From Phytopythium helicoides (taxonomy: Eukaryota > Oomycota > Peronosporomycetes > Pythiales > Pythiaceae): 64,000 nt of DNA. The notes under the pieces were generated by a model, which worked only from the letters and a program-made list of their open reading frames with translations, was not told where the DNA came from and did not search any database. The position numbers and the translations under genes are program-made. Every line of letters begins with the position of its first letter. The first letter of the stretch is position 1. Location: the NCBI GenBank assembly GCA_024867545.1, contig JANFNE010000080.1, positions 24,314 through 88,313 of the forward strand, in the 5' to 3' direction. This document shows, one piece after another, positions 47,162-62,492 of the stretch.

Positions 47162-50065
47162 ACGGTTTGATGAAGCTAAATGGTGGTTTTCTGACGCAAG
47201 TGCCCTCCATGCATCCAGCGCCAGTTCAAAGGGTTGCACAAGATTCTGTAGCGACCCGACTTCTGCGCACACCGTCAGGCTCATTTCAAGATTCGCTTCC
47301 GACAGACCAATTACAAGGCGATCTTCAATCCTAACGCCTGCCTCGACATGCCTTCTCAGCTTTCTCTCGCGCTACCTGAGAATTTCCTACCGGATTCGCG
47401 GTGGCACCCAACGGAACCATGCTACGTGCAAATAGTAGGGAGTGGGGTCGGGGGAATTAGCGTCCAAGCCGTGTCTGACTCTCTCGCTCGGGCATGATGG
47501 CCGATACAAACCTCAGTGATTACTACGTGTCTCGCTCGGAAGCCACTACCGGAGTTGGAGCAATGCTGTGTAAGGCAGTCTCTGGAAAGAAAAAGGCGGG
47601 TATCGATACGGTCTGGTCACCGGATACCGTGTGAAGAAGCAATCTGTTTGGTCGCTACTCATCCTTGCACCTCCTCCTACACGCCTATGTACCTGTTGTA
47701 TGTGAAGATCAGCTGGTTCGAGTCGCGTAATCAATGCCGGGACCGATGCGCGTATAGTCATCAAGCGAACCCTGGAGGACCCACGAATGATGGTTGGATC
47801 TTCGGGTTCCATCCTGAGGTGGTCCACACGAATGAGTGTGTACACCTTTTGGACACTCGCCGCCGTTGCCGTAGTCGTTGCCGACCTTCCCATCAGGAGC
47901 GCGCGGATCCTCTCTTTTCCCCAGCGTGCCCCACCACACAGCTACTGAGGATAAGTTCAAGTGGGTCAATCCAGCCACCGTTGCTGATTGTGCGTCACGT
48001 CTGCTACATGCGCTGGAATTCGCATACTTTGTTGATGGTGAACGCTCGGTTCGCGTACCATCCGTTCTCGTCTAGGGTCGTCATTCTGCGACTATCCTGC
48101 ATCGACTCAACCCTCATCTGAACTGGCTGATCATGCTGGAATTACCTTAGATCAACCGCCACGCCACCACCACACTAATTGCCTGATGGGAACTCTCAGT
48201 CCGGCTCTCTCATTTGGCAAGGCGGCCATGTGGTGCCTCCACGGAGATCTTCCCGCTCAGTGTCTTTCAGCCAGCAACATCCAATATATTTGCCAGTACC
48301 CATTTGTCCTGTCTAACCAGGCAACTCTGCCCGCCTCGCCTCAGGGAACCCCTCGTTAGAGTCACTCCTCGCTGACGAGGTCAGCAATTATAACGGGCTT
48401 CAGGGGAAAACTGTGTCGATAGAGAGCTCAGGCAAGCAAACATTGATAATTCGTACTCTAAGCTCTCAGGCAAGCCTACTCATCGTTTAACTGAATCAGT
48501 GCGCCCATGCCAACCCGCGGAAACGCGACCCACATGCAGCTGGGCTAGATGACCACGATCCTCAGTGGCACCATCTGACTGCGCCATATGATAACATTGA
48601 CCAATTTGAATCGTCTGACAGAGGGCAGCCAAAATCGAATTTCAGATAAACGAGAGAGCAGCGCGCAGTTCACGATGTAATTTCTCTTGTGTACACGTTT
48701 GCACGGTTGTTCTTTAACGAAACAAACCGAGAATTCATCACTGCAGCGATGGATTTCGCGATGAAGGTGCACTCAATGGATCAGTGGACCTCCAGCGATG
48801 CCGATAATCTGAGTGACCATTTTGATGATGATTTTGAAGATTACCGCCGCGCGGTAGAAACGTCCCAGCAGTACGCCGTTGGTTCTCGAAGTCAGATCCG
48901 GTTTTTCTCAGTACTCTTTATATCGTTTAGAATGAGCGATATGCGAGCTTTCATTCTCCGCCAAAACCACCGGGGCACTCACGGGACGGAGTTATACGAA
49001 GTCCCCATCGCTGGACGAAGTCGGATCCCATACGATGTGTTTAAAGCAATTCCGAAGCAAGGCGATCGCCAGCACTGCATCAAAATTTTAATCACGAAAA
49101 GGATTTGCATTGAAATCCCCTGAACGATGCGTGTCGGATAAATACGTCCACGGAATCCCACCCACTCTGTCTCCAATCGTGATCCAGTATATCGAAAGCT
49201 CGCTTGGAGGCCTCCGTGTTGAGATTTCGTCGACAAGATGACATCCTCTGGCGGGAATCAACGATTAGCTGTATCGAGCGCTGTAGTCTAATCTGTACGA
49301 CAATCACTCGAACCTATACTGTGCACGGCAGAAGCGCACCGACGCGACTGGCTCCATCGTGCGTTTAATATAGCCGGAATTCACCCTCCGATCCGGGCCC
49401 ACATCAGCCTCGCCGCAATGTCACTCTGAGCCGAGATCGAGTGTCGGACATCGATAGTGGCGGACGATACCAATGATGCCGACTATCAGTGTCGACGGAT
49501 ATTGCTGCGACATTCTGGGTCTGACACGTGTCTCGCGGCGGTCTCGCCGCCGCCTCTCTAAATCGATACCAGCTTCTCCACAGCAGCCCTCCTGCTCGAG
49601 TCGGTGTGGTGCGGCCATACTGGGTCGAGCAAACATCGCTTACAGCTCCCAACCTCCCATCGATATGGCCGTAGTCTCGACCCATCCAGCGGAGGGCGCC
49701 GACACCGAGTTGCAAGCTGTTGCAGAAGCGCCGCCCACGTCCACATTTCCGACCCTGGTTATATCGCCGCTGCGTCATGCAGCCGCTCGCATAGACACCA
49801 TGACGACTGCACCTCTCCATCGACCGCGGCTACTTCGGTGCCGGGTAGTGCGTGCGACGTGTGCGACAATGAGCGCATGGTGGAGTTGGTGGCTTCACCG
49901 AACCTAGCCGTGGTGCTCACCACTCGGTCTACCTTCCGGTCAATCCGTGAGGTCGTCCGAGCATTCTCGACGATGGCTGACGTGGCTGTAGAGCTTGGAA
50001 CCCAGCGCGATGTTCTTGTGCAGTCGGTCAGCAAGCTTCGTCATCATGAGTAGTACCTCGCGGAT
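47162..50065. other. Degenerate accessory DNA, probable transposon remnants
   Basis: About 2.9 kb with only short frames. The best are 48689-49123 (+, 144 residues, acidic middle WTSSDADNLSDHFDDDFEDY) and the end of 49604-50053 (+, NLAVVLTTRSTFRSIREVVR). Their composition is protein-like, but neither belongs to a family I recognise. Fragmented coding-like text also occurs near 47493-47640 (+). The region ends abruptly where base composition changes at about 50086. Confidence 0.4.
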
Positions 50066-50085
50066 CGTTTGGGGGACACTTTTGT

Positions 50086-50442
50086 AAAAATCTCAAATTC
50101 TATTTCTATTTCTATACTTTCAATACCCCTAACCATCTCTCATTATTTGTAGCACATATCTCTCATAAAACCCATCCTCTTAAGCTAATAAAGTTATGAG
50201 ACAAATGGTATGGGTCATATGTAAAGAAACTACTTTTAATGAGAATCATCCGGATAAACAGTCAAGTATCTCAGATGCTACAAAAATAAGAAGCCCTATA
50301 AACGCTACACAGCTAAAGATCCAAAAACGCATTTTACACATTTAAAAAACGTCCCTCAAAAAAATTTCTATTCTGATACATAAATATATAAAGTATAAAT
50401 ATACAACACACTTTCAACTTTATATAGTTAGATAACATTAAC
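50086..50442. other. AT-rich left end of the viral element
   Basis: About 350 bases of AT-rich DNA with no open frame of note between the host junction and the first viral gene. It may contain the viral terminal repeat and the promoter of the first gene (TATATAGTTA at 50421). Confidence 0.5.
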
Positions 50443-51183
50443 ATGAGCTTCAGCAACGAAGAGTTTCAATACTTCTCACAGAGATGGGCTTCAATGGGAT
50501 CACCAACTCAAAATTCATCTAACGATTCAAGTTATGAAGATTCGGATGAAGACATTGAACGATTCTCGCAAAGATGGGCTTCAATGGGATCACCGACTCA
50601 AAATTCATCTAAAGATTCAAGTTATGAAGATTCGGATGAAGATTCGGATGAAGATTTTGATTATAGATTTGGGAAATGTATTAAATATTCAGCTAAAGAG
50701 ATTTCAATGATTTATGATAATGAATATGAAATTAATTCTAAAGAAGCGAAATGGTTAATTAACAATTATAGACGCGAAAAGAAACTCGGGCTTCATCAAC
50801 GAATTTATGACGATTATATTGAGTCCCCTGAAGATGTAGGGAAACTAGTCCTTACTGAATACATTCATAAGATTTATGTATTTTTAAATTCAGTTCAAGA
50901 ATTTACAGGAGCTGATGGGATAGATCCTTTTTCAGGAGACGATACTATTTACGATTATAATCTTATTGATGATATTTTAGATAATGAAGATTATTGGTAT
51001 TTCAACAAAAGAATTGATATCTTCAATGACATCATTAGAGCAGTTGATAATCTTAATAATAAGAAACGTGTTAAGTCTCTTTTAGATAAAGAAGAACTAA
51101 TTGCAGCAGCAATGCATCCAAATCGTATCATGAAGCAAATGCAATACTATGATGATATGGAAATGTTCTTTGAGAACCTTTAA
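50443..51183 (+). CDS. PLV protein with N-terminal duplication and FGK-type domain
   Basis: 246 residues. The first ~65 residues contain a direct duplication: RFSQRWASMGSPTQNSS plus an acidic YEDSDED tail occurs twice (DNA copies about 50471-50550 and 50561-50650). A domain follows starting at about residue 74: YRFGKCIKYSAKEISMIYDN then AKWLINNY. The pattern FGK-x-hydrophobic...WL is the one in the 102-residue protein at 51834 and resembles the small domain at the C-terminus of ExoX-like exonucleases (hedged). The rest is acidic and helical with no recognised domain. Start chosen at ATG 50443, with TATATAGTTA 13 bases upstream. Function unknown; nucleic-acid binding is possible. Confidence 0.7.
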   Translation: MSFSNEEFQYFSQRWASMGSPTQNSSNDSSYEDSDEDIERFSQRWASMGSPTQNSSKDSSYEDSDEDSDEDFDYRFGKCIKYSAKEISMIYDNEYEINSKEAKWLINNYRREKKLGLHQRIYDDYIESPEDVGKLVLTEYIHKIYVFLNSVQEFTGADGIDPFSGDDTIYDYNLIDDILDNEDYWYFNKRIDIFNDIIRAVDNLNNKKRVKSLLDKEELIAAAMHPNRIMKQMQYYDDMEMFFENL

Positions 51184-51209
51184 ATAAAATAAATTTTTTT
51201 TATATAGCT

Positions 51210-51551
51210 ATGGATAATAAATATTATTTAGCTCAACCAACACGAATTCATTTTCATAAAGATTACTTTACATACGAACAAGCGGTTGAGTGGAAAGAGA
51301 TACATTATCCAAATCATAAAAATGATGTTGAGAATTTAGAATCGGATTGGTTTGTTTTTCATAACATGATGATTAATCCATTTCAATACTTTGTTTATTG
51401 TAGCTATGATATTGATGGTATTGTGTTGATGTATGAGGTTATTACTTATAATCCAAACAGGTTAGCTATCAGAGAACCAATTGATATAAAAAAGATTGAA
51501 TTGAATTGGTATAAAAAATATACCGATGGATTAAGCTTCGTAAGCATATGA
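51210..51551 (+). CDS. Small PLV protein, unknown
   Basis: 113 residues, rich in Tyr, Asn and Trp. A short helix-like opening (FTYEQAVEWKEIHYPNHKND) resembles the opening of the 76-residue protein encoded on the opposite strand next to it (FFHDEVKQWLIDHDYKVDEN), so the two may share a fold seen in small proteins of large DNA viruses. The ATG directly follows TATATAGCTA. Its last 21 bases overlap the end of the minus-strand gene, so the two are convergent. Function unknown. Confidence 0.6.
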   Translation: MDNKYYLAQPTRIHFHKDYFTYEQAVEWKEIHYPNHKNDVENLESDWFVFHNMMINPFQYFVYCSYDIDGIVLMYEVITYNPNRLAIREPIDIKKIELNWYKKYTDGLSFVSI

Positions 51552-51761
51552 CAATCCTTCAGTATCTTTAGAGTAAATTAAATACATGCAATCAATACCA
51601 TGACGCTTTGGAAGATTAACAAAGTAATTATAACCAACACGCGGTATGTAATTTATAGGATGATTCTCATCTACTTTATAGTCATGATCAATTAACCATT
51701 GCTTTACTTCATCGTGAAAGAAGTGTTTTTCACCAAAGTTGATTTTGATTAATAACACCAT
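51531..51761 (-). CDS. Small PLV protein, unknown
   Basis: 76 residues, start ATG 51761 with TATATAGATA three bases upstream (minus strand, 51773-51764). It contains HDEVKQWLIDHDYKVDEN followed by IPRVGYNYFVNLPKRHGID, a pattern I associate with small uncharacterised proteins of giant viruses, but I cannot name the family. It overlaps the convergent 113-residue gene by 21 bases. The well-placed promoter motif supports it being real. Confidence 0.55.
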   Translation of the reverse strand: MVLLIKINFGEKHFFHDEVKQWLIDHDYKVDENHPINYIPRVGYNYFVNLPKRHGIDCMYLIYSKDTEGLSYAYEA

Positions 51762-51833
51762 TTTATCTATATATTAATTTATATATTTTTTTGATTTTAT
51801 ATCGTGGCATCTATATAGATACATAATACAATC

Positions 51834-52142
51834 ATGTCATTTCAATTTGGTAAATACACAAATAAAATGTATGATGAAGTATATGAATTTGATCCAAGCT
51901 ATATGCGATGGTTGCTTACACAAGAGCTTATCTTAGAGAAGAATCAAGATCTAAAAGATTATCTCAATAGTAAATTCAAAGATACTGATACAAGCTATCA
52001 AATCAATTTCGGTAAGTATAAGGGAAAGACAATCAATCAGATCATTAAATTAGATAAACAATACTTAGAATGGTTACTGAAGAACAGTCAATTTGATAAT
52101 ATGACTACACTTAAAGCTGAAATTAAGAAGATCTTAATATAG
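51834..52142 (+). CDS. Two-copy FGK...WLL (ExoX-C-like) domain protein
   Basis: 102 residues made of two copies of one domain. Copy 1 reads FQFGKYTNKMYDEVYEFD then YMRWLLTQE. Copy 2 reads INFGKYKGKTINQIIKLD then YLEWLLKN. The (I/F)xFGKYxxK...(Y)xxWLL pattern is that of the small domain found C-terminal to exodeoxyribonuclease X-like nucleases and alone in many viruses. No nuclease residues are present, so this is probably a binding or accessory protein. TATATAGATA sits at 51812-51821, 12 bases before the ATG. Confidence 0.65.
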   Translation: MSFQFGKYTNKMYDEVYEFDPSYMRWLLTQELILEKNQDLKDYLNSKFKDTDTSYQINFGKYKGKTINQIIKLDKQYLEWLLKNSQFDNMTTLKAEIKKILI

Positions 52143-52149
52143 ATACAAG

Positions 52150-52335
52150 ATGGATATTCAATACGTAGAAGTCAAAGATGATGGATACGTCATTGATAAT
52201 AAGATATATGAAACGAATACTACTACTATTATACATGAAATGAAAGCCCGTACTATGAATTATATAAAACAAAAAAAATTAAGAGCTAAACCTCTTAAGA
52301 AAGATCCAACTAGATATGAAAATCTATTAAAATAG
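52150..52335 (+). CDS. Small basic PLV protein
   Basis: 61 residues with a basic C-terminus (MNYIKQKKLRAKPLKKDP). It starts only 7 bases after the preceding stop, and AATATAGATA (52136-52145) overlaps the end of the upstream gene. It lies head-on against the capsid gene, whose stop is 14 bases away. Function unknown; its charge would suit nucleic-acid binding. Confidence 0.5.
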   Translation: MDIQYVEVKDDGYVIDNKIYETNTTTIIHEMKARTMNYIKQKKLRAKPLKKDPTRYENLLK

Positions 52336-52348
52336 GATCTTATTTTTT

Positions 52349-54088
52349 TTATGAAGCGGTATATTCTACTACTTCACCAGTTAGACGGTTATAGCTTAGT
52401 TCATTTTCAAAAGCAACGAGAACAAGTAGATTTACACCCTGAGACGCAGCGTTAGTGCCCATTACCTGAATGCTTTGTGGAACATCTTTTTCGGTAAGAC
52501 GACTAACATCAGCAATTAGAACACGATTAGTTAGCGACCATGTCTTCATATCAAGAAGACCATTAGTTAGCTCTTCAGTTAGATCACCGTTAATCGCACC
52601 AAGTTTAGAGAACTCATTAACAAATGAATGGAAATCGTAATCATAATTGAGATCAAATACCTGTTGCGAACCGATACGAACATTAAAATTGCGAATGCAG
52701 CTACCAGCCTGAACGGTCCATGGTGCGCTGTCAAAAGGTGATTGGAATTGCTGACAAGTTGCAGAAGCGAAATTACCAGAAGAAGTTTCAGCAAAAGGTA
52801 GTAGAGCAACGTATTTAGCATTCTTAAGCGATGCTGATAGTTGTAGATCAAATGCAGTATTATGCTGACCAGCCTTTACACCAACACCAGCGCGTTGGTA
52901 GAACCATTGAGCGTAGAAGTCAAGGTATTTAATTTTTTTCTCAGGTTTTGATACAATGGATTGAGGGTTCTCAAGATCAAGGAAAGGAACATATAGACGA
53001 GCTGTAGTGAAAGGGAAGTAAGTAGAATTGGTAGTAGGTTCAACATAATTAGTAACCGCACCCCAAGCAACTGTAATTTGACCCGCAGAAGAAGTGTTAA
53101 ATACATTGTAATTAGGGTTATTAGCAGCTGTAGAAGCAACCATAATAGGACAGACATTACCAGATGAAAGAGTTGTTGAAGTTAAAGTCATTGCTGATGC
53201 AGCAGCTCCAGAAGTAGCGATAATTGAATAACCCTGATTTACACGAAGACGAAGTTTAATTTGAGGATTAGCCATTAGATCAAGTTGTTCAAAGATAGGA
53301 TGTAGATCAACAAGACGAATCTTTAGAACATAGAACCATGAACCAGCAGTTTGACCAGCAGTAGTAACTCCAGCAACGAAAGCACCGCGACCAAGTTGAT
53401 TAGCAATTGTAGTAGAAGTAGCATCACCAGCAGTAGTAGATCCGAGAGTGGGCCAACCGAATGTATTAACAGCAGTTCCAGCAACAGGTGGATTAGCAGT
53501 TAGACGCTTAACGAAACCAGTATTAGCAGGGGAAACACCTGTAGTAGCGACTGAAGAACCAATATCAGTTGTGTTATTAGAGAAACCATCACCATCAGTA
53601 GAAGCAGAAGCTGACCAAGCTAACGATCCAGCATCATCAGGATATAGAAAACTTTCAGCACCATGTTTATCAACGTAAGTTGAAGCAAACTCAGTCTGAG
53701 CGCGAATATTGTTAATGAAATTCTTATAGTCAAGCATGCTTAGAATTTGCTTACCATTGAGTTCCAGAGACATAGAATCAATAATATTCCAAACACCGCA
53801 TTTAAGACCGACAGACATACGGTTAGCAACAGCATTAAGAGCAACGCTAGCATGACTATTTTTCATACTTACGAGATATGGGATAGATAGATAAGCATCG
53901 CGAAGGCAAGCAAAACCCTCAGCACCATTAAGCTGAGAAGTAGCATCAATAGTGATAATACCATTTTGATAAGATCCCTGATTGATATCAATAACGTATG
54001 GAACACGCTTTCGCGTTGATACCTTAACGTTAGGATCACTCTTTAGCGATGATTGATAGAGAAACTGATCTCCGAGTTGAGTAGCCAT
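52349..54088 (-). CDS. PLV major capsid protein (double jelly-roll)
   Basis: 579 residues, intact, ATG at 54088. Length and character fit the double jelly-roll hexon-type capsid protein of polinton-like viruses and virophages: beta-rich, Thr/Ser/Ala/Asn-rich and almost without cysteine. The opening MATQLGDQFLYQSSLKSD, the early IDINQGSYQNGIITIDATSQ and the PYLVSMKNS region look like PLV capsid N-termini known to me. The position next to the protease, penton and ATPase genes is the usual PLV morphogenesis block. It would form trimeric capsomers of an icosahedral virion. Regulation may use AATATACTA upstream, a weak version of the shared motif. An intact reading frame of this length in a eukaryotic chromosome suggests a recent insertion. 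Confidence 0.85.
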   Translation of the reverse strand: MATQLGDQFLYQSSLKSDPNVKVSTRKRVPYVIDINQGSYQNGIITIDATSQLNGAEGFACLRDAYLSIPYLVSMKNSHASVALNAVANRMSVGLKCGVWNIIDSMSLELNGKQILSMLDYKNFINNIRAQTEFASTYVDKHGAESFLYPDDAGSLAWSASASTDGDGFSNNTTDIGSSVATTGVSPANTGFVKRLTANPPVAGTAVNTFGWPTLGSTTAGDATSTTIANQLGRGAFVAGVTTAGQTAGSWFYVLKIRLVDLHPIFEQLDLMANPQIKLRLRVNQGYSIIATSGAAASAMTLTSTTLSSGNVCPIMVASTAANNPNYNVFNTSSAGQITVAWGAVTNYVEPTTNSTYFPFTTARLYVPFLDLENPQSIVSKPEKKIKYLDFYAQWFYQRAGVGVKAGQHNTAFDLQLSASLKNAKYVALLPFAETSSGNFASATCQQFQSPFDSAPWTVQAGSCIRNFNVRIGSQQVFDLNYDYDFHSFVNEFSKLGAINGDLTEELTNGLLDMKTWSLTNRVLIADVSRLTEKDVPQSIQVMGTNAASQGVNLLVLVAFENELSYNRLTGEVVEYTAS

Positions 54089-54157
54089 TGTGTTATCTTT
54101 GATAACTTAGTATATTGGCACTAAATATAAAAGCATCTGAATAAATAAAATTAAATA

Positions 54158-54532
54158 ATGGATTTGGTTAAACCCATTACGTCAGATCACGATCTAATTG
54201 AATTGGCAAACAAGATTCATGTAAAGATTGATAATATTTACGACTCATTAGAATATCAGGGTGAGATACCTAAAAAGGGGTCTTATATCATATTGCTACG
54301 CAATTCTGATGGTATAGGTCATTGGGTTTGCTCTCATGATGGTTATTACTTTGATAGTATGGGTGAGGGACCACCAACGAGATTTGGGTTACAAAAATAT
54401 AATGAAGTTCAATATCAGGGATCAAGAGATGATTTCTGTGGCATATTCTGTCTTATGTGGTTATATTCAAAACAACATAACAAACCTGAGATTCTAAAGC
54501 CATTTAACGATTTAAATATTAAAGTTTTATGA
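54158..54532 (+). CDS. Adenovirus-type maturation cysteine protease
   Basis: 124 residues, compact for the family. Catalytic elements in order: His in GIGHWVCSHDG, acidic residue in YYFDSMGEGPP, Gln in VQYQGSRDD and Cys in FCGIFCLMWLYSK. This His-Asp-Gln-Cys order is that of adenain/Ulp1-fold (C5/C48) proteases, which cleave scaffold and minor capsid proteins during virion maturation in adenoviruses, polintons, virophages and PLVs. The gene is divergent from the capsid gene with 69 bases between starts. It precedes the putative membrane-active protein, a likely substrate. Confidence in the fold is high; substrates are inferred. Confidence 0.85.
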   Translation: MDLVKPITSDHDLIELANKIHVKIDNIYDSLEYQGEIPKKGSYIILLRNSDGIGHWVCSHDGYYFDSMGEGPPTRFGLQKYNEVQYQGSRDDFCGIFCLMWLYSKQHNKPEILKPFNDLNIKVL

Positions 54533-54578
54533 TTGAATGAATATAGATAAAACTGTCTTTTCGTGAAGATTTTCAACG

Positions 54579-55316
54579 ATGTATAAGGAACTTCAAGTTT
54601 CAAAAGATATTCCTGAGTCAAGACTCAAGAGAGCTTTCAAGAATGGAACGCTTACACTCACAGCAGCTGAACTCAAAGGAAGTGGAGCAACTTTACATTT
54701 GCATCCGGAAAGCTATGCTAAAGCTCTCAAAGCGCGTAAAGCGAATAAAGGAACACGACTTACCATTACTAAAAAGGAAATTGGATATCCTTTCAAGCAT
54801 ATGCAAGGAGGCGGGACGTATGGTGGTAGTATTTGGGGAAAGATCTGGGGTGGTATCAAGAAAGCTTTTAAATGGGCTAAAGATTCAGGAGTATTAAGTA
54901 AAGTTGCAGATGCAGCAGTTGCACCATTAACCGCTTATACTGGAAATCCTCAAGCAGTAATGGCAGCACGATCAGGACTTAAAACACTAACTGGAGTAGG
55001 TGTTGATTACAGTTCTGAAGAAGAAAAAGGAGGACGTATTAGCTTAGCGGAAGTAAAGAAACGTGGCAAACAAGCACTCAAATACATGAAAGATAAGGGT
55101 ATCATCACGGACATTGTAAATAAAGGAGAAGACTATCTTCTTTCTAAGGCTGAGAATGATAGCCAACGTGAATTAATCAAATATACACGAAAAGGAATCA
55201 AAAATAAATTCGGTGTTGGTATGGCAATCAAAGGAACATCTCAAGCTAAAGAACGCATGAGTTTAGTCAGAGCAGCTAAGAGTAAGAAGAAGGCTGGTGG
55301 AAGCTTCATGCTTTGA
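54579..55316 (+). CDS. Candidate PLV virion core / membrane-active protein
   Basis: 245 residues, strongly basic. The first ~75 residues resemble a small domain seen at the start of some NCLDV/PLV proteins (LTLTAAELKGSG, then LTITKKEIG). Then GGGTYGGSIWGKIWGGIKKA forms a Gly-led amphipathic helix, followed by a hydrophobic helical stretch (SKVADAAVAPLTAYTG). The C-terminus is Lys/Arg-rich (AKSKKKAGGSFML). Layout is like adenovirus pVI/pX-type proteins: amphipathic lytic helix plus basic DNA-binding tail. Gly-Gly-x sites near residue 77 could be cleaved by the neighbouring protease. AATATAGATA lies 30 bases upstream of the ATG. Assignment is by layout and position, not by firm homology. Confidence 0.55.
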   Translation: MYKELQVSKDIPESRLKRAFKNGTLTLTAAELKGSGATLHLHPESYAKALKARKANKGTRLTITKKEIGYPFKHMQGGGTYGGSIWGKIWGGIKKAFKWAKDSGVLSKVADAAVAPLTAYTGNPQAVMAARSGLKTLTGVGVDYSSEEEKGGRISLAEVKKRGKQALKYMKDKGIITDIVNKGEDYLLSKAENDSQRELIKYTRKGIKNKFGVGMAIKGTSQAKERMSLVRAAKSKKKAGGSFML

Positions 55317-55331
55317 GAAAAAAAATAACAT

Positions 55332-55346
55332 GAAACCTTTGGTTTC
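55332..55346. terminator. Hairpin between convergent PLV genes (copy 1)
   Basis: GAAACC-TTT-GGTTTC, a perfect 6-bp stem with a 3-nt loop. It directly abuts the TAG stop of the minus-strand penton gene and lies 16 bases after the stop of the plus-strand gene at 54579-55316. The same 15-mer recurs at 59380-59394 in the same relation to a minus-strand TAG stop. A role in transcript 3'-end formation is inferred. Confidence 0.55.
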
Positions 55347-56212
55347 TAACCTCTTTTTTTGCGTATCAAAAGCATAATAGATACACTCTTATCGCGGAAT
55401 TTAACGGGTTTGTCATCCTGATCAAACATCTGTATCGTGATACTACTTCGTGCGCCATCATGTGTATCCATCCATGCATACTGGCTGGGTTGGAACGTTA
55501 TTATTTTACCCGTTTCAGAAGGTCTGGGGAAAGAAGTTAGGATATTTCCCGCAGGATCAAAAATATTCTTAACTAAATCACATCGTAGAACATATGACGA
55601 AGTTGGATGAATCTCAGGTGTAATATTGCTTAGAGTTGATACAGCAGATGTAGAAGATGTAGCAGGGTATGTTCCTGTAGAGAAACCGATAACTTTACCA
55701 AACTCAGCATTATTGACAATTAAACGAGGAACGCGTGTTGTTGTAGGCAATCCTGATCCACCCGCACTATAGAGACCCGTTGCAGGTCTGGTATAACCTG
55801 TAGGAAGAGAAGTAGGTGTTGCTGAGCAATCCAACTGAGCAGCATAATAAGTTGAATTAGCTGTTATTTGGATATAGAAAACGTTATTGCCTGTAGAGTC
55901 AATTAGATATGCTCCCGCGTTGACTAAAGCGTTTTGAATATTACGATTTATATCGGTATATTGATAGGTTCCGTCAGCTAAAGTTATATTGATTGTTGAT
56001 GTAGTAGTAGCTGTAGGAACTTCAATTGAAAAAGTGTTATTTGCATATTGACCTGCATTAATATTGTATTGAGAGTTATAGAGATTAATAGTTTCAACCG
56101 CAATCTCCATATCTTTGAAATTTACACTTGAACCAACGAAATCATGTTTCCATGTGTTATTGAATCCATTCTCAACTAATTTACTTCTATCTATCTTGAT
56201 TAGAGAAGACAT
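55346..56212 (-). CDS. PLV minor capsid (penton-like) protein
   Basis: 288 residues, intact, ATG 56212. It is beta-rich with the sequence character of single jelly-roll penton proteins from PLVs and virophages: SIEVPTATTTSTINITLADG followed by YTDINRNIQNALV, LIVNNAEFGKVIGFSTGTYP, and a conserved-looking end VKFRDKSVSIMLLIRKK. The product would form pentamers at the capsid vertices and hold the fibre. It is transcribed with the ATPase gene on the same strand (56-base gap) and converges on the basic virion protein gene. The TAG stop overlaps the GAAACC-TTT-GGTTTC hairpin. Confidence 0.8.
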   Translation of the reverse strand: MSSLIKIDRSKLVENGFNNTWKHDFVGSSVNFKDMEIAVETINLYNSQYNINAGQYANNTFSIEVPTATTTSTINITLADGTYQYTDINRNIQNALVNAGAYLIDSTGNNVFYIQITANSTYYAAQLDCSATPTSLPTGYTRPATGLYSAGGSGLPTTTRVPRLIVNNAEFGKVIGFSTGTYPATSSTSAVSTLSNITPEIHPTSSYVLRCDLVKNIFDPAGNILTSFPRPSETGKIITFQPSQYAWMDTHDGARSSITIQMFDQDDKPVKFRDKSVSIMLLIRKKRG

Positions 56213-56268
56213 TTTGAATTCAGAGAATTCCTGACAGATTCGTTGTCTTTTGATTTATATTTATGTAA

Positions 56269-56947
56269 TCAAAGTTCATCAGGATTTACAACTTTATTAA
56301 AATTATAACGTAGCTCTGATTTTACTGAATCAACGAATAAGAACTGACCCTTGCCATGTGAAGTAGCTTTATTGTAAGCAATCATTAATTTTTGTTCATC
56401 AACATCCCTTATATTGAAATCAGTTGCAACTAACTTAAGATCACGCTTAGAGTTAGCTCTAAGAATACATAGATACTCTGTATTCAAACGAATCATTTTG
56501 AAAGTATCAAAATAACTATGAACTATCATTATAGTTGATAAGAGATGATGGCGACCTCTTGTAAAGTAATGTGAGATAACATTCTTCTGTAGTAACCGAT
56601 CATTTGAATAATCATCAATCAATACTAACTCGGGCTTCTTCATAGGTGTTGCACGAATCTTATCAACATTTGGAATGTCAGGATGGAATGTAATGAATCC
56701 TTCTAACTTATCCTTTAGGAAATTGAAGATTGGTTGATCCGGATTTCTTGCAATTATATGCAAATGACTGAAAACATGAGGAGAGTGCTTGAGAATATAC
56801 ATAAATAAGTTTGTCTTGCCCGAATATGAAGGTCCTAATATCAGCATTCTAAAAAGACTCTTGATATCTAAATCGTGAATATCCCCTACATTACTCTTAC
56901 GATACTTCTTTAGGAATTTCGTTATCAAAGTTAGGTATAGTAGCCAT
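56269..56947 (-). CDS. A32-like genome-packaging ATPase
   Basis: At least 219 residues. Walker A is GPSYSGKTN (residues about 33-41), Walker B is LVLIDDYSND, and the arginine-containing GRHHLLSTIMIVHSYFDTF segment carries the sensor/hydrophobic strand typical of FtsK/HerA-superfamily packaging ATPases. PLV, virophage and NCLDV homologues pump DNA into the capsid. The frame starts at a TTG (56928). An ATG at 56947 in the neighbouring frame begins plausible text, so the real start is probably 56947 with a single-base indel before codon 20. The nearby upstream region is AT-rich (TTATATAAATAC). Confidence 0.85.
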
Positions 56948-56996
56948 CTTTGATTAGCTAAATTATCGCTTGTATTTATATAATTACAATTAAAAG

Positions 56997-58807
56997 ATGT
57001 CAGGTTTTAGTTATCCAAAACCTATATTTAATAGCGATATTTATAATCCTCTGTTTTACCTCTCATTGGATCCATCTGGCTTTTTAACATTAGATTATGC
57101 GAAACACTCTATATCTACCTAAGAATGATTATCGCTTATCATATATAAGCGGTATAACAGGTTGGGGTTGCCCAATCTGGCATAGCTTTAGTTCCTGATA
57201 CTTCTTTGAATATAAGTGGTATTAATGCCTTATCATGTGCTTCTTTATCAATAGGAGGAAGTTTAGTTAATCTAACTTCTCTGAGTTATCTAAACGGTAT
57301 CACGATAGGTTCAGCATCAGCGAGTAAAGCTTTAGTTTTAGATGCGAGTCTTAATATATCAGGCATCAATTCGCTATCAGCAACTACTTTGTCTGGAACT
57401 TTATCAACAGGAATACAAAGTAATATTACTCAAGTAGGAACGCTCTCATCTTTAAATGTAAGCGGAAGTATCTCTGGCGGAAGTTCATTGAGTATTACAA
57501 GTGGGATAACATGTAGTTCGCTATCAGCAACTACACTATCAGGAACGCTATCAACAGGAATACAAAGTAATATTACTCAAGTAGGAACATTAACTGGTTT
57601 AACAGTATCCGGAACCTTAAATGCTACTACTATTCAACAAGGAGGAACAACATATGACATATCGCGGTTGAGCGCAACTGCCGGAACAGCTACAGCGAGT
57701 AAAGCTCTCATTGTAGATGCTTCTAAGAATATAACTGGCATAAACTCATTAACTACCTCTACATTGAATGCAAGTGGAATAACTTCAACCGGAATTAATA
57801 CATTAGCTAATTTTGTAGTTTCAGGCGGTGGAGGTGTTATAAACGGAGGATTATCTATAAATGATTCCGGAATTAGCATGTTATCAGGAGATTTTAATTT
57901 ACCTCAAACTAATGCAATTCAGTTCTGTAGATCAGTAGGAACAGTAGATCTTAATTCATCAATTTATTGCAATGGAATTATCGGTCTAGTGCTATCAGCT
58001 TCAAGAGGAAGCGGAAACATACAATACCGAACTAATAGATATGGCACTAGCAATACTCTGCCTGCTCACTGTTTTACAGATGGCACGGTGAGTAGCATAG
58101 ACCGAGCTATATTGAATTTGTATTACAACAAAACATGTCAAATAGGCGGTATTCAGCCTACCACAACAGCTCTGGACGCATATTGGGGCTTAGCTGTAAT
58201 ACAAAGTGGCATTCAGGCTCATGGTTACTACAGCACAAGTGATAGTGTTGGTTCAGCCTTTATTAAACCCAAATATGTATGGAGATTACAGAATGGATCT
58301 CAGGGAACCGATGGAGTTTCACAAGGAGGTATAGGCCCGCACGATACTACAGGCAACCGAACTCGCATAGGACTTTGTCAAGTTCTCTCAACCGCTGACG
58401 CCAATAACAATATGTTTTCATGGGATTCGGGGGGAGGGGGCCTCTCGTGCTACTCAGCGGGTTGGAGCACAACTAGTGATCTAAGGCTAAAGACAGACAT
58501 TCTAGCTGTTGAATATTCTATTGAAACGATTATGCAACTAAATCCAGTTAGATACGTTCTAAAGAGTCAGCCCGAAGAAGGTTATAATTTAGGATTGATT
58601 GCACAAGAAGTATTACATATTGTTCCAGAGTGTGTGAAAGTCTCAGGCGATGAAAATGATAGAGAAGATAGCCCTGTTATGATGAGTATTGAATATTCAA
58701 ATTTAATACCGGTATTAGTAAATGCAATTCAGCAGCTTAATCAAAAAGTAGAACAACAACAGCGAATTATTAATGAACTTTCTAATAAGATATTCAATAC
58801 TATATAA
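56997..58807 (+). pseudogene. Virion fibre with S74 chaperone domain; 5' end frameshifted twice
   Basis: The open part (533 residues) has a repetitive beta-helix shaft (LSATTLSGTLSTGIQSNI occurs twice; 57376-57445 and 57520-57590 are near-identical DNA). It ends in an intramolecular chaperone/auto-protease S74 domain: TTSDLRLKTDI with the Ser-Lys pair, GLIAQEVLHIVPE, then a C-terminal coiled coil (VNAIQQLNQKVEQQQ). Such domains trimerise phage and algal-virus fibres and then cleave themselves off. The first codon of the long frame is TTG. The natural start appears to be ATG 56997, but the first ~70 codons are spread over three frames, with breaks near 57105-57125 and 57155-57165. Either the gene is dead or the assembly has two indels here. 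Role: host attachment. Confidence 0.75.
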
Positions 58808-58817
58808 GATACCAAAG

Positions 58818-59108
58818 ATGGATATCATAGATACTTTCTATAATAAGCAAGGAGAGCCTATCCAAGTTGTTGATATACGTAAATCAACGCGAAATGGTAA
58901 AAAATATATGGCTTACGTTATTTTCAATGGCAAACGTAGATTGTATCACTTTGGAGCATTAGATTATCAACATTACAAAGATCAAACGCCATTAAAACTT
59001 TACAGTTATCTAGATCATAACAACAAACAACGTAGAGAGTTATATCTAAAAAGACATGTTCATGATAATGGAGTTTCAGGAATATTAGCTAGAGAATATC
59101 TTTGGTAA
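58818..59108 (+). CDS. DUF5754-like small PLV protein
   Basis: 96 residues from ATG 58818, with TATATAAGATA at 58801-58811; a longer frame from 58773 overlaps the fibre gene and is less likely. The segment LYHFGALDYQHYKDQTPLK followed by NNKQRRELYLKRHVHDNGVS resembles the small family with an FGxxxYxDxT...KR..Y..RH pattern found in PLVs, virophages, phycodnaviruses and iridoviruses (I recall it as DUF5754). Function is unknown. Its persistence across these viruses suggests a virion or host-takeover role. Confidence 0.7.
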   Translation: MDIIDTFYNKQGEPIQVVDIRKSTRNGKKYMAYVIFNGKRRLYHFGALDYQHYKDQTPLKLYSYLDHNNKQRRELYLKRHVHDNGVSGILAREYLW

Positions 59109-59123
59109 GGTATAGTTAAAACG

Positions 59124-59342
59124 ATGGGTTGCAAACCAAGCAAGTTAAATTCAAATCTAAGACCTGTTAATCCTGAACAAGTTATAGGTTCTACCGTTCT
59201 TCAAGCTGATCAAATTTGCGTTTTAGGTTCATCAATATTCCTTCCTATTACTGAAAATGGTGATTCAGCGATTATAGAGATAGAAATCAATGATAAAAAA
59301 TGCGAGTGTATCGCGGATACAAGAATACATTATCAAGGATAG
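59124..59342 (+). CDS. Small PLV protein with N-myristoylation motif
   Basis: 72 residues beginning MGCKPSKLN. This fits the MGxxxS/T consensus for N-myristoylation with an adjacent Cys for palmitoylation, so the protein would be membrane-anchored in the host cell. It starts 15 bases after the previous gene, with TATAGTTA at 59111-59118. The remainder (QVIGSTVLQADQICVLGSS) is beta-like with no recognised domain. Function unknown. Confidence 0.6.
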   Translation: MGCKPSKLNSNLRPVNPEQVIGSTVLQADQICVLGSSIFLPITENGDSAIIEIEINDKKCECIADTRIHYQG

Positions 59343-59379
59343 GTTTAAGCGATTAATTAATTGACATCAGAGATGTCCT

Positions 59380-59394
59380 GAAACCTTTGGTTTC
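59380..59394. terminator. Hairpin after PLV genes (copy 2)
   Basis: Second copy of GAAACC-TTT-GGTTTC. It abuts the TAG stop (minus strand, 59396-59394) of the decayed gene to its right and lies 37 bases after the stop of the plus-strand gene at 59124-59342, the same convergent layout as at 55332-55346. Confidence 0.55.
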
Positions 59395-59676
59395 TAAAGA
59401 GCAAACGTTGATGGTTGCTTCTTTTTTTTCAATCCAGTAGGAATATATTTCGCTTTCTTACTGATCCAGACCTGATCCACCAGTTTGTGTAGCTACTTCT
59501 ACTTAGGATCAGTATTCGGTATTTTTGTTTCAGCAAACGCAGGGCAGAGAATCAGCCTTAGTCTCTTTAACTATTATATTCTTCATCGCTTTCTTAAGTT
59601 CATCAAGATTCTTAGCAGCCTCCGAGTTATACGACCCATCTATTTTAGATATGAAAATGGGGTTAAGGTAAATCAT
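59394..59676 (-). pseudogene. Small decayed PLV gene
   Basis: From ATG 59676 the minus strand encodes a helical start (EAAKNLDELKKAMKNIIVKE), then continues in other frames (AETKIPNTDPK, EVATQTGGSGLDQ) and ends in a basic tail (KYIPTGLKKKKQPSTFAL) at TAG 59394. At least three single-base shifts are needed to read it through. No family recognised. It is one of several broken genes in the right half of the element. Confidence 0.5.
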
Positions 59677-59685
59677 CGTAGTTAT

Positions 59686-61253
59686 TTATATTAAATGGTT
59701 TAGAGTATCTTTGAATTCTTTTGTTGAAATTAATTGATTAGCATACATATCAATGAGAACGGGCTTCAATTGAGTTAAGATTGACGGGTTATTATTACCA
59801 AGCATGATTTCTCCTTTAAGCTTCTCATATTCAGCGGTTAGTTGTTTTAACGGATCTGATAACTCATCCTTAAATGCATTCTGAATATGAGTATGTTTGA
59901 GAATTTCCTTAATTAAGCGTTTATCTACAATAGAAAGCTTATCGTATTGATCCTGACTAAGCTTACCATCATAAATTAATTCTTTAAGCATATATTTTAC
60001 AGAATTACTAATCTCTCTCTTACACCCTAATCGTCTACACGGATATACAATGTTAAGAACGTTCTTATCAAGATCAGGATACGAATGAACTTAGATCCAA
60101 GTTGTTGATATATGTAAGCTGAAGCGATTCCGGTGCCCTGAATATCATTCAAATTATAATATTTAGTTCTTCGCTCTACATGTTGATAAACACCCTTACC
60201 GGCACCTTTTAATCCTTTTCCTTTAAGATGTGAATTTAGACCTTTACCTTCATAATGTTTAGAGACTATGTTGTATAGCTTTTGTTGAGCTCTTAGATTT
60301 TCTTTAGCTGATACAACTGCTGCTTCAGATCTCTTTGATTTCTTTAATGCAAATAACGCTTCAGCCTGTTTCAACATGTATTTTGCTTTTTGAACGTTAT
60401 CCTCTGCTTCTGATATATCAATTCTTTTAAGTAATCCGGTTTCATCAGCATTCTGATATGGTTTAGCGAATGCAACACCTAATTCACCATTCTCTTTAAG
60501 TAGTTTCTCAAATGTAGTAATAATTAGTCTTATTTGACTTTGTGTTTCTCCATCTAATCCCATACTATCAGAATTCGTAAGTGTTTCACGTAAGTCATCA
60601 ATACCTCCAACGAGATCTTCAAATGTTGCATACCAATTAACTGATTTTTGAATTTCTAAATTCTTAATAGACTCAGTTTATGCCACTCCCATTGTTTCTT
60701 TTTTTATTATATGAATCCTGATAGATATTGATGTATGACGAACCTTCAGGTGTCCCAAATTTTTTCTTTCTATCAACCCCAATGTTTTTAGCTCCATTCA
60801 TTGTAGGATGAAGAGTAAAAGGTAGTTCTAATCCGTATTCCGTTAGTCTCTTAATATAATCTTTAATAAGTTCCTTTGCTTCTATCTGACTCATTGATTG
60901 ATTTCGTGGTAGATCTCTAATATCCATACCGGTTTGAACACCATCAACAGGTGGTTGAAGATCCTTCCAAAAGCTTTTCATCTCTTTATTAGCTTTTAAA
61001 GTTGGATAACCTTCACTATTAGTAAATTGTTGAATGAATTTCGTTAAAGTATCATTCCAATCAACAGCATCTTTAATAGTTGGTTTAGGAGCTTTAGTAA
61101 TGTTATCAACAACCATGAGATTCGTTCCATCTTGATTGAATCTGATTGAATAACTTTTAGCTGATTTACCAATATTAAACTTAAACCCATCATACATTGT
61201 AGGGTAAAGGATAAAGTTCTTAGGTAGAACATCCTTATACTCTCTAAGTAGTT
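59686..61253 (-). pseudogene. Conserved PLV protein, frameshifted and cut by telomeric repeat
   Basis: Three minus-strand frames (61253-60673, about 60670-60030, then 59991-59686 and just upstream) form one gene of about 520 residues broken by two single-base shifts, near 60670 and 60090. The C-terminus (LTAEYEKLKGEIMLGNNNPS) matches the KLxGEYxxGNDNP-type tail I associate with a conserved uncharacterised PLV/virophage protein. Mid-protein text is helical and Lys-rich with a Gly-Lys run (HLKGKGLKGAGKGVYQH). At its 5' end the frame is open up to 61253, reading ELLREYKDVLPKNFI with no ATG in that frame before the telomeric repeat at 61256. The N-terminus is therefore lost. Function unknown. Confidence 0.6.
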
Positions 61254-61255
61254 CC

Positions 61256-61279
61256 TAGGGTTTAGGGTTTAGGGTTTAG
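61256..61279 (+). repeat. Interstitial telomeric repeat at PLV break
   Basis: About 3.4 copies of TTTAGGG in the same orientation as the terminal telomere. It replaces the 5' part of the viral gene on its left, so it marks a break point. Confidence 0.9.
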
Positions 61280-62144
61280 AAGCTGTCCTGAAAAAAAGTG
61301 CCCAGCAAGGTATACTTTTGATTATGTGGGATCTTAGATGACATATTGGGATGGATGAAACCAACTTTTTTTTTGTCTGTCGTCGACCTACTTTTTGAGC
61401 TACGGTCGAAAAACTGTCACAATTTATACGATTTTGAAAGTCACCAGGAAGACCTATATTTGTGATATGATATGATTAGGATATTGTATTTGAAGCATTT
61501 ATTTTGTCGGTCGAAGAATTTCTGTGGAGGACTTCAAAAGTTATAAGCGTCTGAAGTTGTCGCTTGGAGGTGATCAATACGGGCTATTTCTCAGTCTTTA
61601 AAACGTTTGGGGGTGCACTTTTTTTACTCAAACACTTTTATTGGATTGATATAATATTAGTGACGTACTTAAGTCGCTTCTATGTCCCATAATAGAAGCG
61701 GTATTAAACGATCACTGGATCCCCACACACCCTTCATGCCTTATATACAGTTTTCAAGATGTTTGAGATCGACAAAACATTTTTTTTCATAATCCCCATA
61801 GTCGATATAGTAGGGGTAGGAAAGATAGTAATTACCTTTGGGACCATAGAAAGTCCAGGAAATAAAATCATACGCCTGTGGAACGTTCTTACAGGCAATC
61901 AGTATTCTATTCATACCAGACTATTGATACTTGATTACAGCGATGCCAATGGAACATTGGAATGGTCCATAGACATATACGGCATTACCACCCTATAGAC
62001 CACATACAACTAACGAAAATGACAATCACAATCACAAATACTAAGGCCTTCGATTTATCACCATAGCTTGACAACAGTAGATGGGAGCGGAGTATTTTTG
62101 ACGTTTATACAAAGGAAAAAATACGTGAATAGAGGTGTGCAGGA
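61280..62144. other. Subtelomeric DNA, no gene
   Basis: Moderately AT-rich, without a convincing gene; the open frame at 61759-61998 has no family signature. It contains CGTTTGGGGG at 61604, the partner of a nearly identical sequence at the left edge of the viral element. Confidence 0.5.
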
Positions 62145-62163
62145 TAGGGTTTAGGGTTTAGGG
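62145..62163 (+). repeat. Interstitial telomeric repeat
   Basis: About 2.7 copies of TTTAGGG, directly followed by TCCCTAAACAG and then the first nested hairpin. Confidence 0.88.
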
Positions 62164-62178
62164 TCCCTAAACAGTATA

Positions 62179-62298
62179 TGACATTGGGCAATTATACTTG
62201 AAATTTGTATCCAAACCCTAATGACATTGGGCAACCCTCCTCGGACCCAATGTCATATAGATTTTAATACAAATTTCAAGTATAATTGCCCAATGTCA
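62179..62298. repeat. Nested hairpin module 1
   Basis: Arms 62179-62231 and 62246-62298 are inverted repeats: a perfect outer 32-bp stem, an 11-nt mismatched middle and a perfect inner 10-bp stem, with a 14-nt loop CAACCCTCCTCGGA. Each arm begins and ends with the same word, TGACATTGGG, so it is repeated four times in alternating orientation. Confidence 0.93.
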
Positions 62299-62336
62299 TG
62301 CTGTCGCGCAGTGTCGTATAGATTTCAATACAAATT

Positions 62337-62363: not shown

Positions 62364-62492
62364 GGGGAGGACAATGGCCCATTTCATACAAACTTCAAGA
62401 TAAAATGGGGAGGACAATGGCCATCCCTCCCCGGAGCCATTGTCCTCCCCTTTTATCTTGACTTTTGTATGAAATGAGCCATTGTCCTCCCC
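62364..62492. repeat. Nested hairpin module 2
   Basis: Arms 62364-62421 and 62436-62492 are nearly perfect inverted repeats of 57-58 bases with a 14-nt loop CATCCCTCCCCGGA. Each arm begins and ends with GGGGAGGACAATGGC, giving four copies in alternating orientation. The stem is unrelated to module 1, but the loop differs at only two positions. Confidence 0.93.

Follow-up and report, generated by a model that had tools for sequence, protein, structure and literature searches.

A Probable Polinton-Like Virus Relic with a Mosaic Fibre and a Broken End Joined to Telomeric DNA in Phytopythium helicoides

The window analyzed in this report is a stretch of 64,000 nucleotides from the oomycete Phytopythium helicoides (assembly GCA_024867545.1, contig JANFNE010000080.1, positions 24,314 to 88,313). 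It is the final 64 kb of a contig of 88,313 bases, denoted here as C80, in a genome of 49.06 Mb in 100 contigs. The AT-rich block at approximately 50052 to 61256 of the window is best explained as a truncated insertion of a Polinton-like virus (PLV). The block comprises the capsid-side half of the element, carries an exchanged fibre tip, and is fused at its broken end to telomeric DNA; it most likely represents an inactive relic. We assign this explanation a probability of about 0.8.

The original prediction, made from the sequence alone, had described an AT-rich PLV block in a GC-rich chromosome within 3 kb of a telomere, and both the composition and the position were found to be as described. 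The mean GC content is 0.346 in the block (22 intervals of 500 bp) and 0.552 in the host part (100 intervals, minimum 0.436), and 1 of the 22 block intervals lies above the host minimum. The terminal TTTAGGG array begins 2504 bp past the right edge of the block. The repeat unit and the types of element described below fit an oomycete host.

Results and Discussion

Gene Content of the Block

A search of the genome with the major capsid proteins (MCPs) of the window and of contig C88 identified five MCP loci: the window itself, C40 (open frame, 74% identical), C97 and C87 (both broken), and C88. The features of the block are listed below with identities to these loci.

50052..50442, no strand: left edge of the viral block, AT-rich, preceding the first listed frame; no matching terminal repeat on the right
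50443..51183, plus: 246-aa protein of unknown function; the gene contains a 90-bp tandem repeat
51210..51551, plus: 113-aa protein, also in the C88 PLV (43%)
51834..52142, plus: 102-aa protein carrying two ExoX-like C-terminal motifs; C40, C87, C88, and (in pieces) C97 hold relatives
52349..54088, minus: probable MCP, 579 aa, open frame; 74% to C40, 23% to C88
54158..54532, plus: adenain-like cysteine protease, 124 aa; H, D, Q, and CG common to 3 of 3 aligned relatives
54579..55316, plus: 245-aa minor virion protein, likely protease substrate; 4 adenain-type sites
55346..56212, minus: probable penton or minor capsid protein, 288 aa; 61% to C40, 35-37% to C88
56269..56928, minus: A32-type packaging ATPase, 219 aa; Pox_A32 and PHROG terminase matches
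56997..57119, plus: N-terminal piece of the fibre (anchor), 41 aa, in a frame other than that of the remaining fibre; 74-78% to the anchor of C40
57161..58807, plus: 548-aa open frame for the shaft and tip of the fibre, with an S74 chaperone domain; the tip (57878-58807) is C88-like
58773..59108, plus: DUF5754 protein (Pfam); of the other four MCP loci, C88 alone has a relative (54%)
59686..59991, minus: 101-aa protein; 62% to C97, 59% over 66 aa to C87
60027..60563, minus: 178-aa protein with three adenain-type sites; partly C97-like (83% over 47 aa)
60673..61254, minus: frame open into the telomeric repeat; gene probably cut at its 5' end

Direct sequence evidence identifies the ATPase, the S74 fibre, the DUF5754 protein, and the protein with ExoX-like motifs, and the protease is recognized through conserved residues. 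The Pfam scan took in 14 frames of the block, the longest of which encodes 579 amino acids. The ATPase was matched by Pox_A32 of Pfam (1.6e-07; 31.5 bits, above the cut-off of 22.8) and by a PHROG terminase (8.8e-08). The packaging ATPase of the A32 type that is looked for in a PLV (Preplasmiviricota) is present by virtue of the Pox_A32 match. Among 166 candidate stretches in IMG/VR, one ATPase relative was found (32% identical); the contig that carries it has fibre-like frames and no capsid relative.

The 124-aa protein shares His55-Trp, Asp66, Gln87, and Cys94-Gly with all three aligned relatives (C40, C88, and C87; the broken C97 copy was left out of the alignment), and we take these to be the catalytic positions of an adenain-type enzyme. 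The cysteine protease of the Gossevirus/GKS1 group is represented in the block through these residues, as judged from the adenain motif. A PDB search with the protease gave no match of weight. Adenain-type proteases cleave at (M/I/L)xGx-G and (M/I/L)xGG-x. The 245-aa protein contains 4 such sites, compared with 1.06 expected (34 of 2000 shuffles reach 4), and the same 4 positions bear sites in the C40 and C87 relatives. Three sites are present in the 178-aa protein (an excess reached by 12 of 2000 shuffles) and likewise in its C97 relative (27 of 2000). The further 11 window proteins examined contain no such site.

The 579-aa and 288-aa proteins are probably the MCP and the penton, respectively. 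These names are based on position and gene order, on size, and on conservation next to the ATPase and protease in five loci; penton relatives are present in C40, C87, C97, and C88. Four hallmark morphogenesis genes had been predicted, of which the ATPase and the protease are now supported by a profile match and by conserved residues, and the MCP and the penton stand as probable. The frames of the MCP, penton, ATPase, and protease contain no internal stops, in agreement with the earlier claim of intact capsid, penton, and protease frames.

Between the window and C40 capsid genes dN is 0.22 and the synonymous sites are saturated, which indicates purifying selection on the capsid between the two. 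One could imagine from this that the capsid module is being retained by the host for defence or another domesticated function instead of decaying: the capsid genes are open, dN is far below dS, and the C40 locus keeps an open capsid frame at a host-like GC content at third codon positions (0.545, compared with 0.226 for the window MCP). However, all of the selection between the window and C40 copies can predate insertion, acting while both lineages were viruses, and 2 of the 5 MCP copies are broken. We regard domestication as improbable.

Mosaic Structure of the Fibre

The predicted fibre gene was confirmed. The segment at 57878-58807 was matched by Peptidase_S74 of Pfam (1.9e-12) and by PDB entry 6f45, the solved structure of a phage long tail fibre (1.7e-06). 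The frame is broken near its start, with the anchor in different frames from the remainder, and this break reflects either genuine decay or an error of sequencing.

The window element is a mosaic that shares its capsid genes and the anchor side of its fibre with C40, and its fibre tip with C88. The identities to C40 and C88, respectively, were determined to be 73.9 and 22.8% for the MCP, 60.6 and 36.7% for the penton, 67.0 and 25.4% for the ATPase, 61.3 and 36.1% for the protease, 66.1 and 36.8% for the 245-aa protein, and 47.5 and 35.6% for the ExoX-like protein. The fibre tip reverses this pattern, with 27.6% identity to C40 (to the end part of the C40 fibre) and 84.1% to C88. The 41-residue anchor is 74-78% identical to C40 and has no match to C88, and the shaft shifts from C40-like to C88-like along its length. 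The anchor and the capsid thus appear to travel together, with the tip as the exchangeable part, much as in phage tail fibres. The tips of the window and C88 elements differ with a dS of 2.46 and a dN of 0.15. This strong synonymous divergence argues against a recent exchange between these two copies, and a shared pool of tips is the likelier source. Another S74-type fibre match was noted at C9:536282-536623, within an open frame of 905 aa.

Truncation and the Telomeric Junction

The flanks of the block are listed below.

49426..50051, plus: left flank, belonging to a host repeat that is dispersed in the genome; copies on C12 and C2 are 80% identical
61256..61279, plus: interstitial telomeric repeat bordering the viral block on its right
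61280..62149, plus: common subtelomere module; 98% to C11, 91-95% to C36, C50, C55, and C83
62150..63759, plus: further subtelomere modules with interstitial repeats, mostly common to C88
63760..64000, plus: terminal telomere array of approximately 34 TTTAGGG units at the contig end

The C12 and C2 copies of the left repeat are 98.7% alike and extend past the point where the homology to the window ends (50051), which places the left edge closer to 50052 than to the 50066 proposed originally. Both flanks recur elsewhere in the same genome, the left as a repeat on C12 and C2 and the right as a subtelomere module on five contigs, and this counts against a foreign contig. A PLV-type insertion 2.5 kb from a telomere is well supported.

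No integrase, polymerase, helicase, or terminal repeat was found in the window element, and there were no Pfam matches to RVE, pPolB, or DUF5906 among the 14 frames. In the C97 element the order outward from the capsid module is the fibre, a 101-aa gene, a 254-aa gene, two short frames, and then integrase and polymerase sequence. The window follows the same order, with the DUF5754 gene added after the fibre, through the 178-aa gene and the frame at 60673-61254, which stays open as it enters the telomeric repeat at 61256. Since the sequence from 61256 onward belongs to a common subtelomere module, the integrase/polymerase side and any right terminal repeat are gone. The synteny of the capsid module with C40 and C97, both of which continue into RVE integrase and pPolB sequence, supports truncation. 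The block had been described as intact in its capsid, penton, and protease frames; those frames stand, but its fibre frame is broken and its right side is missing. The pPolB and RVE integrase that define a Polinton/Maverick are absent from the window copy, in contrast to C40, and we do not file the window copy as a Polinton, although it may be the residue of one. With no integrase/polymerase half and a broken fibre frame, the element is most likely inactive.

Alternatively, the element could be complete and still mobile, with an integrase, a polymerase, and a second terminal repeat that went unrecognized. The capsid, penton, ATPase, and protease frames are open, and several of the proteins are of unknown function. 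However, the block is 11.2 kb long, compared with 19.0 kb for the complete C88 element; it has no frame longer than 579 aa and none of the three profile matches; its fibre frame is broken; and its right edge is the telomeric repeat of a common module. No terminal inverted repeat was found between the block ends, and with the right end cut off, loss is indistinguishable from original absence. A complete element is thus very improbable, the least probable of the explanations considered here.

The truncated insertion had been called recent. The low GC content and the open capsid frames fit this description, but the missing terminal repeats leave no means of dating the insertion.

Two other routes to the telomere were considered. 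Telomere-directed integration into TTTAGGG was rejected as the simplest reading: the C88 element occupies a subtelomeric repeat instead of the array, and the module of which the repeat at 61256 is part occurs on other contigs too. Viral telomere repeats like those of HHV-6 were ruled out, as there is no TTTAGGG inside the block.

In the subtelomere modules, long imperfect palindromes were observed at 62178-62299 and 62364-62492 (arms of 54 and 46 nt). Each follows an interstitial telomeric repeat, and related sequence is also present in C88. Elsewhere in the window, a frame of 2172 aa at 23827-30345 contains a 35-copy array of a 102-bp repeat (ankyrin-like by eye) followed by two kinase-like stretches, also recognized by eye. 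The tRNA and Rfam searches found none.

Related Elements in the Same Genome

The C40, C97, and C87 loci have GC contents near 0.50. In C40, an RVE integrase with a chromodomain and pPolB sequence lie beyond the fibre. The relative at C40:32619-43721 is of the Polinton type, with open capsid, ATPase, and RVE frames and a host-like GC content; its pPolB seems, by eye, to lack part of the C97 sequence. Within the 30 kb examined, C87 shows the capsid side only, and a perfect direct repeat of 592 bp lies between its protease and MCP; the two copies are probably the long terminal repeats of an inserted retroelement. No terminal repeats were found for the window block, C40, C97, or C87.

The element at C88 15809-34825 is a complete AT-rich PLV of 19,017 bp with inverted repeats of 774 bp that are 100% identical. 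Its genes include those for a helicase-primase (DUF5906), an HNH endonuclease, and a protein of 437 aa that by eye resembles a tyrosine recombinase, with no profile match above cut-off. It sits in a subtelomeric repeat of which an unoccupied paralogue is found near C88:40835, ends 6.3 kb from the terminal array of its contig, and is probably a very young insertion.

Traces of further elements were also noted. Two copies of a helicase-primase at C24:1065002-1067260 and 1083616-1085874 are inverted, approximately 16 kb apart, equal in score, and 52% identical to that of C88; they are possibly the very long terminal repeats of another element. Sequences at C81:58714-58969 and C87:5598-5857 resemble the outer ends of the C88 terminal repeat placed head to head, as might be expected of adjoining or circularized elements. 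Matches to pPolB occur in very long open frames (1346 and 1206 aa) at C50:160727-161431 and 231279-231980.

Proximity to Telomeres

Telomeric arrays or interstitial repeats were found on 34 contigs, with a pattern that can miss some, and additionally on C3. Two of the five MCP loci (C80 and C88) lie within 15 kb of a terminal array, and that of C87 is approximately 47 kb away. C40 (79 kb) and C97 (35 kb) are short contigs with no listed array. If each of the 35 ends contributes 15 kb, these make up approximately 1.1% of the genome, and at least two of five would be found by chance with a probability of approximately 0.001, a value calculated after the fact for n = 5. Both AT-rich MCP loci are near telomeres, versus none of the three GC-matched loci within 15 kb of an array (two of them on the short contigs without one).

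At approximately 442.7 kb of C36, a long, near-perfect TTTAGGG array directly abuts Polinton sequence that is 99% identical to the polymerase side of C97. A near copy of that side thus does adjoin telomeric repeats. The join falls on a 7-base stretch common to the array and the Polinton, and the orientation puts the Polinton beyond the telomere; it could stem from the joining of a telomere to a broken element or from misassembly.

Evidence to the Contrary

Several results weigh against a truncated PLV with the gene identities given above. A PLV is expected to have a double jelly-roll MCP. Searches of Pfam, PHROGs, NCBIfam (E up to 1), and PDB with the probable MCP of the block gave no match; the profile matches of the penton are all below cut-off (best DUF4797, 0.0024), with none in PDB; and the single-sequence AlphaFold models are unusable, with predicted local distance difference test (pLDDT) scores of 31 for the MCP and 32 for the penton. 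The proposed check by profile and structure was thus borne out for the ATPase but not for these two proteins, whose models score 31-32 and which have no profile above cut-off. In IMG/VR, relatives were found in 0 of 8 and 0 of 70 candidate stretches for the MCP, 0 of 396 for the penton, and 0 of 3 for the fibre tip; the C88 MCP gave no stretches at all. By gene content the block seems Gossevirus/GKS1-like; the MCP of that group is defined by protein cluster PC_0014 or MCP clusters 57-61. The C88 relative of the 245-aa protein has no excess of adenain-type sites (584 of 2000 shuffles), and the site test spanned 19 proteins with shuffle counts uncorrected for that number. The two changes of frame in the fibre could be sequencing errors. 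With regard to truncation, the profile evidence for integrase and polymerase in the relatives is thin: the RVE match of C40 scores 31.9 bits, below the cut-off of 32.6 (Chromo is above its cut-off), and its pPolB match was below cut-off in one scan (24.2 bits) and above it in another (28.2 bits). The integrase and polymerase of C97 are recognized because they resemble the C40 and C36 sequences; one of the C97 pieces is without a Pfam match, and the pPolB profile scan gave none on C97. BLAST showed no homology between the cut gene at 60673-61254 and the genes that occupy the corresponding position in C97 or C40. Finally, both joins of the block are read from the assembled sequence.

This last point, together with the sharp change in GC content at approximately 50052 and the telomere-Polinton join in C36, which also looks abrupt, would fit a chimeric contig in which the assembler joined a contig from a virus or a co-cultured organism to a chromosome end. 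However, one and the same block is bounded by a host repeat at its left edge and by a subtelomere module at its right, three other contigs contain embedded relatives with GC contents near 0.50, and the genome's own subtelomeric repeat holds a second AT-rich PLV. A chimera is unlikely, though slightly less so than domestication.

Comparison with Known Systems

The morphogenesis genes of the truncated PLV recall those of adenoviruses, which are alike in protease, substrate sites, and penton-fibre logic. The window fibre differs in ending in a phage-type S74 chaperone, and the capsid, penton, and protease have no sequence match to an adenovirus entry of the PDB.

The original prediction had held that a PLV in an oomycete would extend the host range. 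This claim does not survive, as PLVs have already been reported from oomycetes (PMC7805220, PMC10120064). Fifteen complete PLV genomes were retrieved from oomycetes, with MCP-bearing elements that cluster with the Gossevirus group (Bellas and Sommaruga 2021, PMC7805220), and MCP copies number as many as 299 in one oomycete genome (Bellas et al. 2023, PMC10120064). Subclades of GKS1 unite ochrophyte and oomycete MCPs (PMC12220804), and giant-virus and Polinton sequences are described in Phytophthora parasitica (PMC8204020). It had also been suggested that the element might be a parasite of a giant virus; our search for a giant-virus helper or capsid was empty but gave no signal in any control genome either. 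As for the virophages (Maveriviricetes), which are characterized by an MCP of their own type and by dependence on a giant virus, the probable MCP of the block gave no Pfam match. The window thus holds a further member of the PLV kind known from oomycetes, near a telomere.

As far as the consulted portions of these papers go, the closest likeness is to the Gossevirus (GKS1) PLVs or Polintons of oomycetes, which have in common with the block a packaging ATPase, often a cysteine protease (in 90 members of a group of 155), a stramenopile host, and an MCP and a minor capsid protein, the latter two only probable in the block (PMC7805220). The window copy differs in that no integration or replication gene or terminal inverted repeat was found in it, in ending at a telomeric repeat, and in carrying a fibre tip that resembles the one of the other kind. 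Terminal inverted repeats are frequent in PLVs but not strictly defining (PMC7805220). Two kinds of oomycete element are published, one with RVE and pPolB and one with a helicase-primase and a tyrosine recombinase (PMC7805220, PMC10120064), and both seem to be present in this genome (C40/C97 and C88, respectively, the recombinase by eye).

According to the portions of PMC12220804 consulted, S74 fibres are ubiquitous across PLVs of most eukaryotic groups. The PLVs of cryptophytes and other protists in that source resemble the window element in their C-terminal Peptidase_S74 chaperone, their modular fibres, and a GC content unlike that of the host; one tip common to two capsid lineages with 23% MCP identity, as found here, is not described in those portions. 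The subtelomeric insertions of Acanthamoeba are likewise concentrated near telomeres, degraded, and partial, but they derive from giant viruses, whereas the present case involves a small PLV and a complete PLV bounded by terminal inverted repeats near another telomere (PMC12210455, in part). Placement of PLVs at telomeres was not encountered in the consulted parts of PMC12220804 or PMC12210455, and telomere terms were absent from those of PMC10120064, PMC8547959, PMC7805220, and PMC8204020.

Conclusions

The following course of events would account for the truncated insertion. The capsid and penton proteins would build an icosahedral shell, into which the A32-type ATPase would package linear DNA, and the adenain-like protease would trim two minor virion proteins at the (M/I/L)xGx-G and (M/I/L)xGG-x sites. 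A trimeric S74 fibre would bind the cell. This fibre is a chimera, with a virion-anchoring start from its own capsid lineage and a receptor-binding tip from a second, distantly related PLV of the kind that appears complete near another telomere (C88). A later break would have separated the capsid half of the insertion from the integrase/polymerase half, after which the exposed end would have become linked to telomeric DNA and, in turn, to further subtelomere modules. The remnant is probably unable to integrate or replicate alone and would be a fairly young relic. Of this account, the gene content, the mosaic, the truncation, and the telomeric junction are seen in the sequence itself, and the formation of particles, the order of events, the age, and the inactivity are inferred.

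The points of interest are the fibre mosaic and the telomere-capped break, and the claim of a new host group becomes one of a known host group. The part of a PLV that probably determines the cells it can enter, the fibre tip, seems to have moved between lineages with only 23% capsid identity, as in phage tail fibres. Direct joins between PLV DNA and telomeric repeats at two places (61256 of the window and approximately 442.7 kb of C36) bear on how viral DNA is stored or destroyed at chromosome ends. It is possible, though we hold this only tentatively and consider it doubtful, that two PLV capsid lineages in one host share a pool of exchangeable fibre tips and that the subtelomere is their site of landing and break-up. 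If so, viral DNA joined to telomeric repeats would become part of a modular chromosome end, and the chromosome ends would carry a record of PLVs that turns over, in which AT-rich newcomers lie close to the telomeres and GC-matched copies lie elsewhere.

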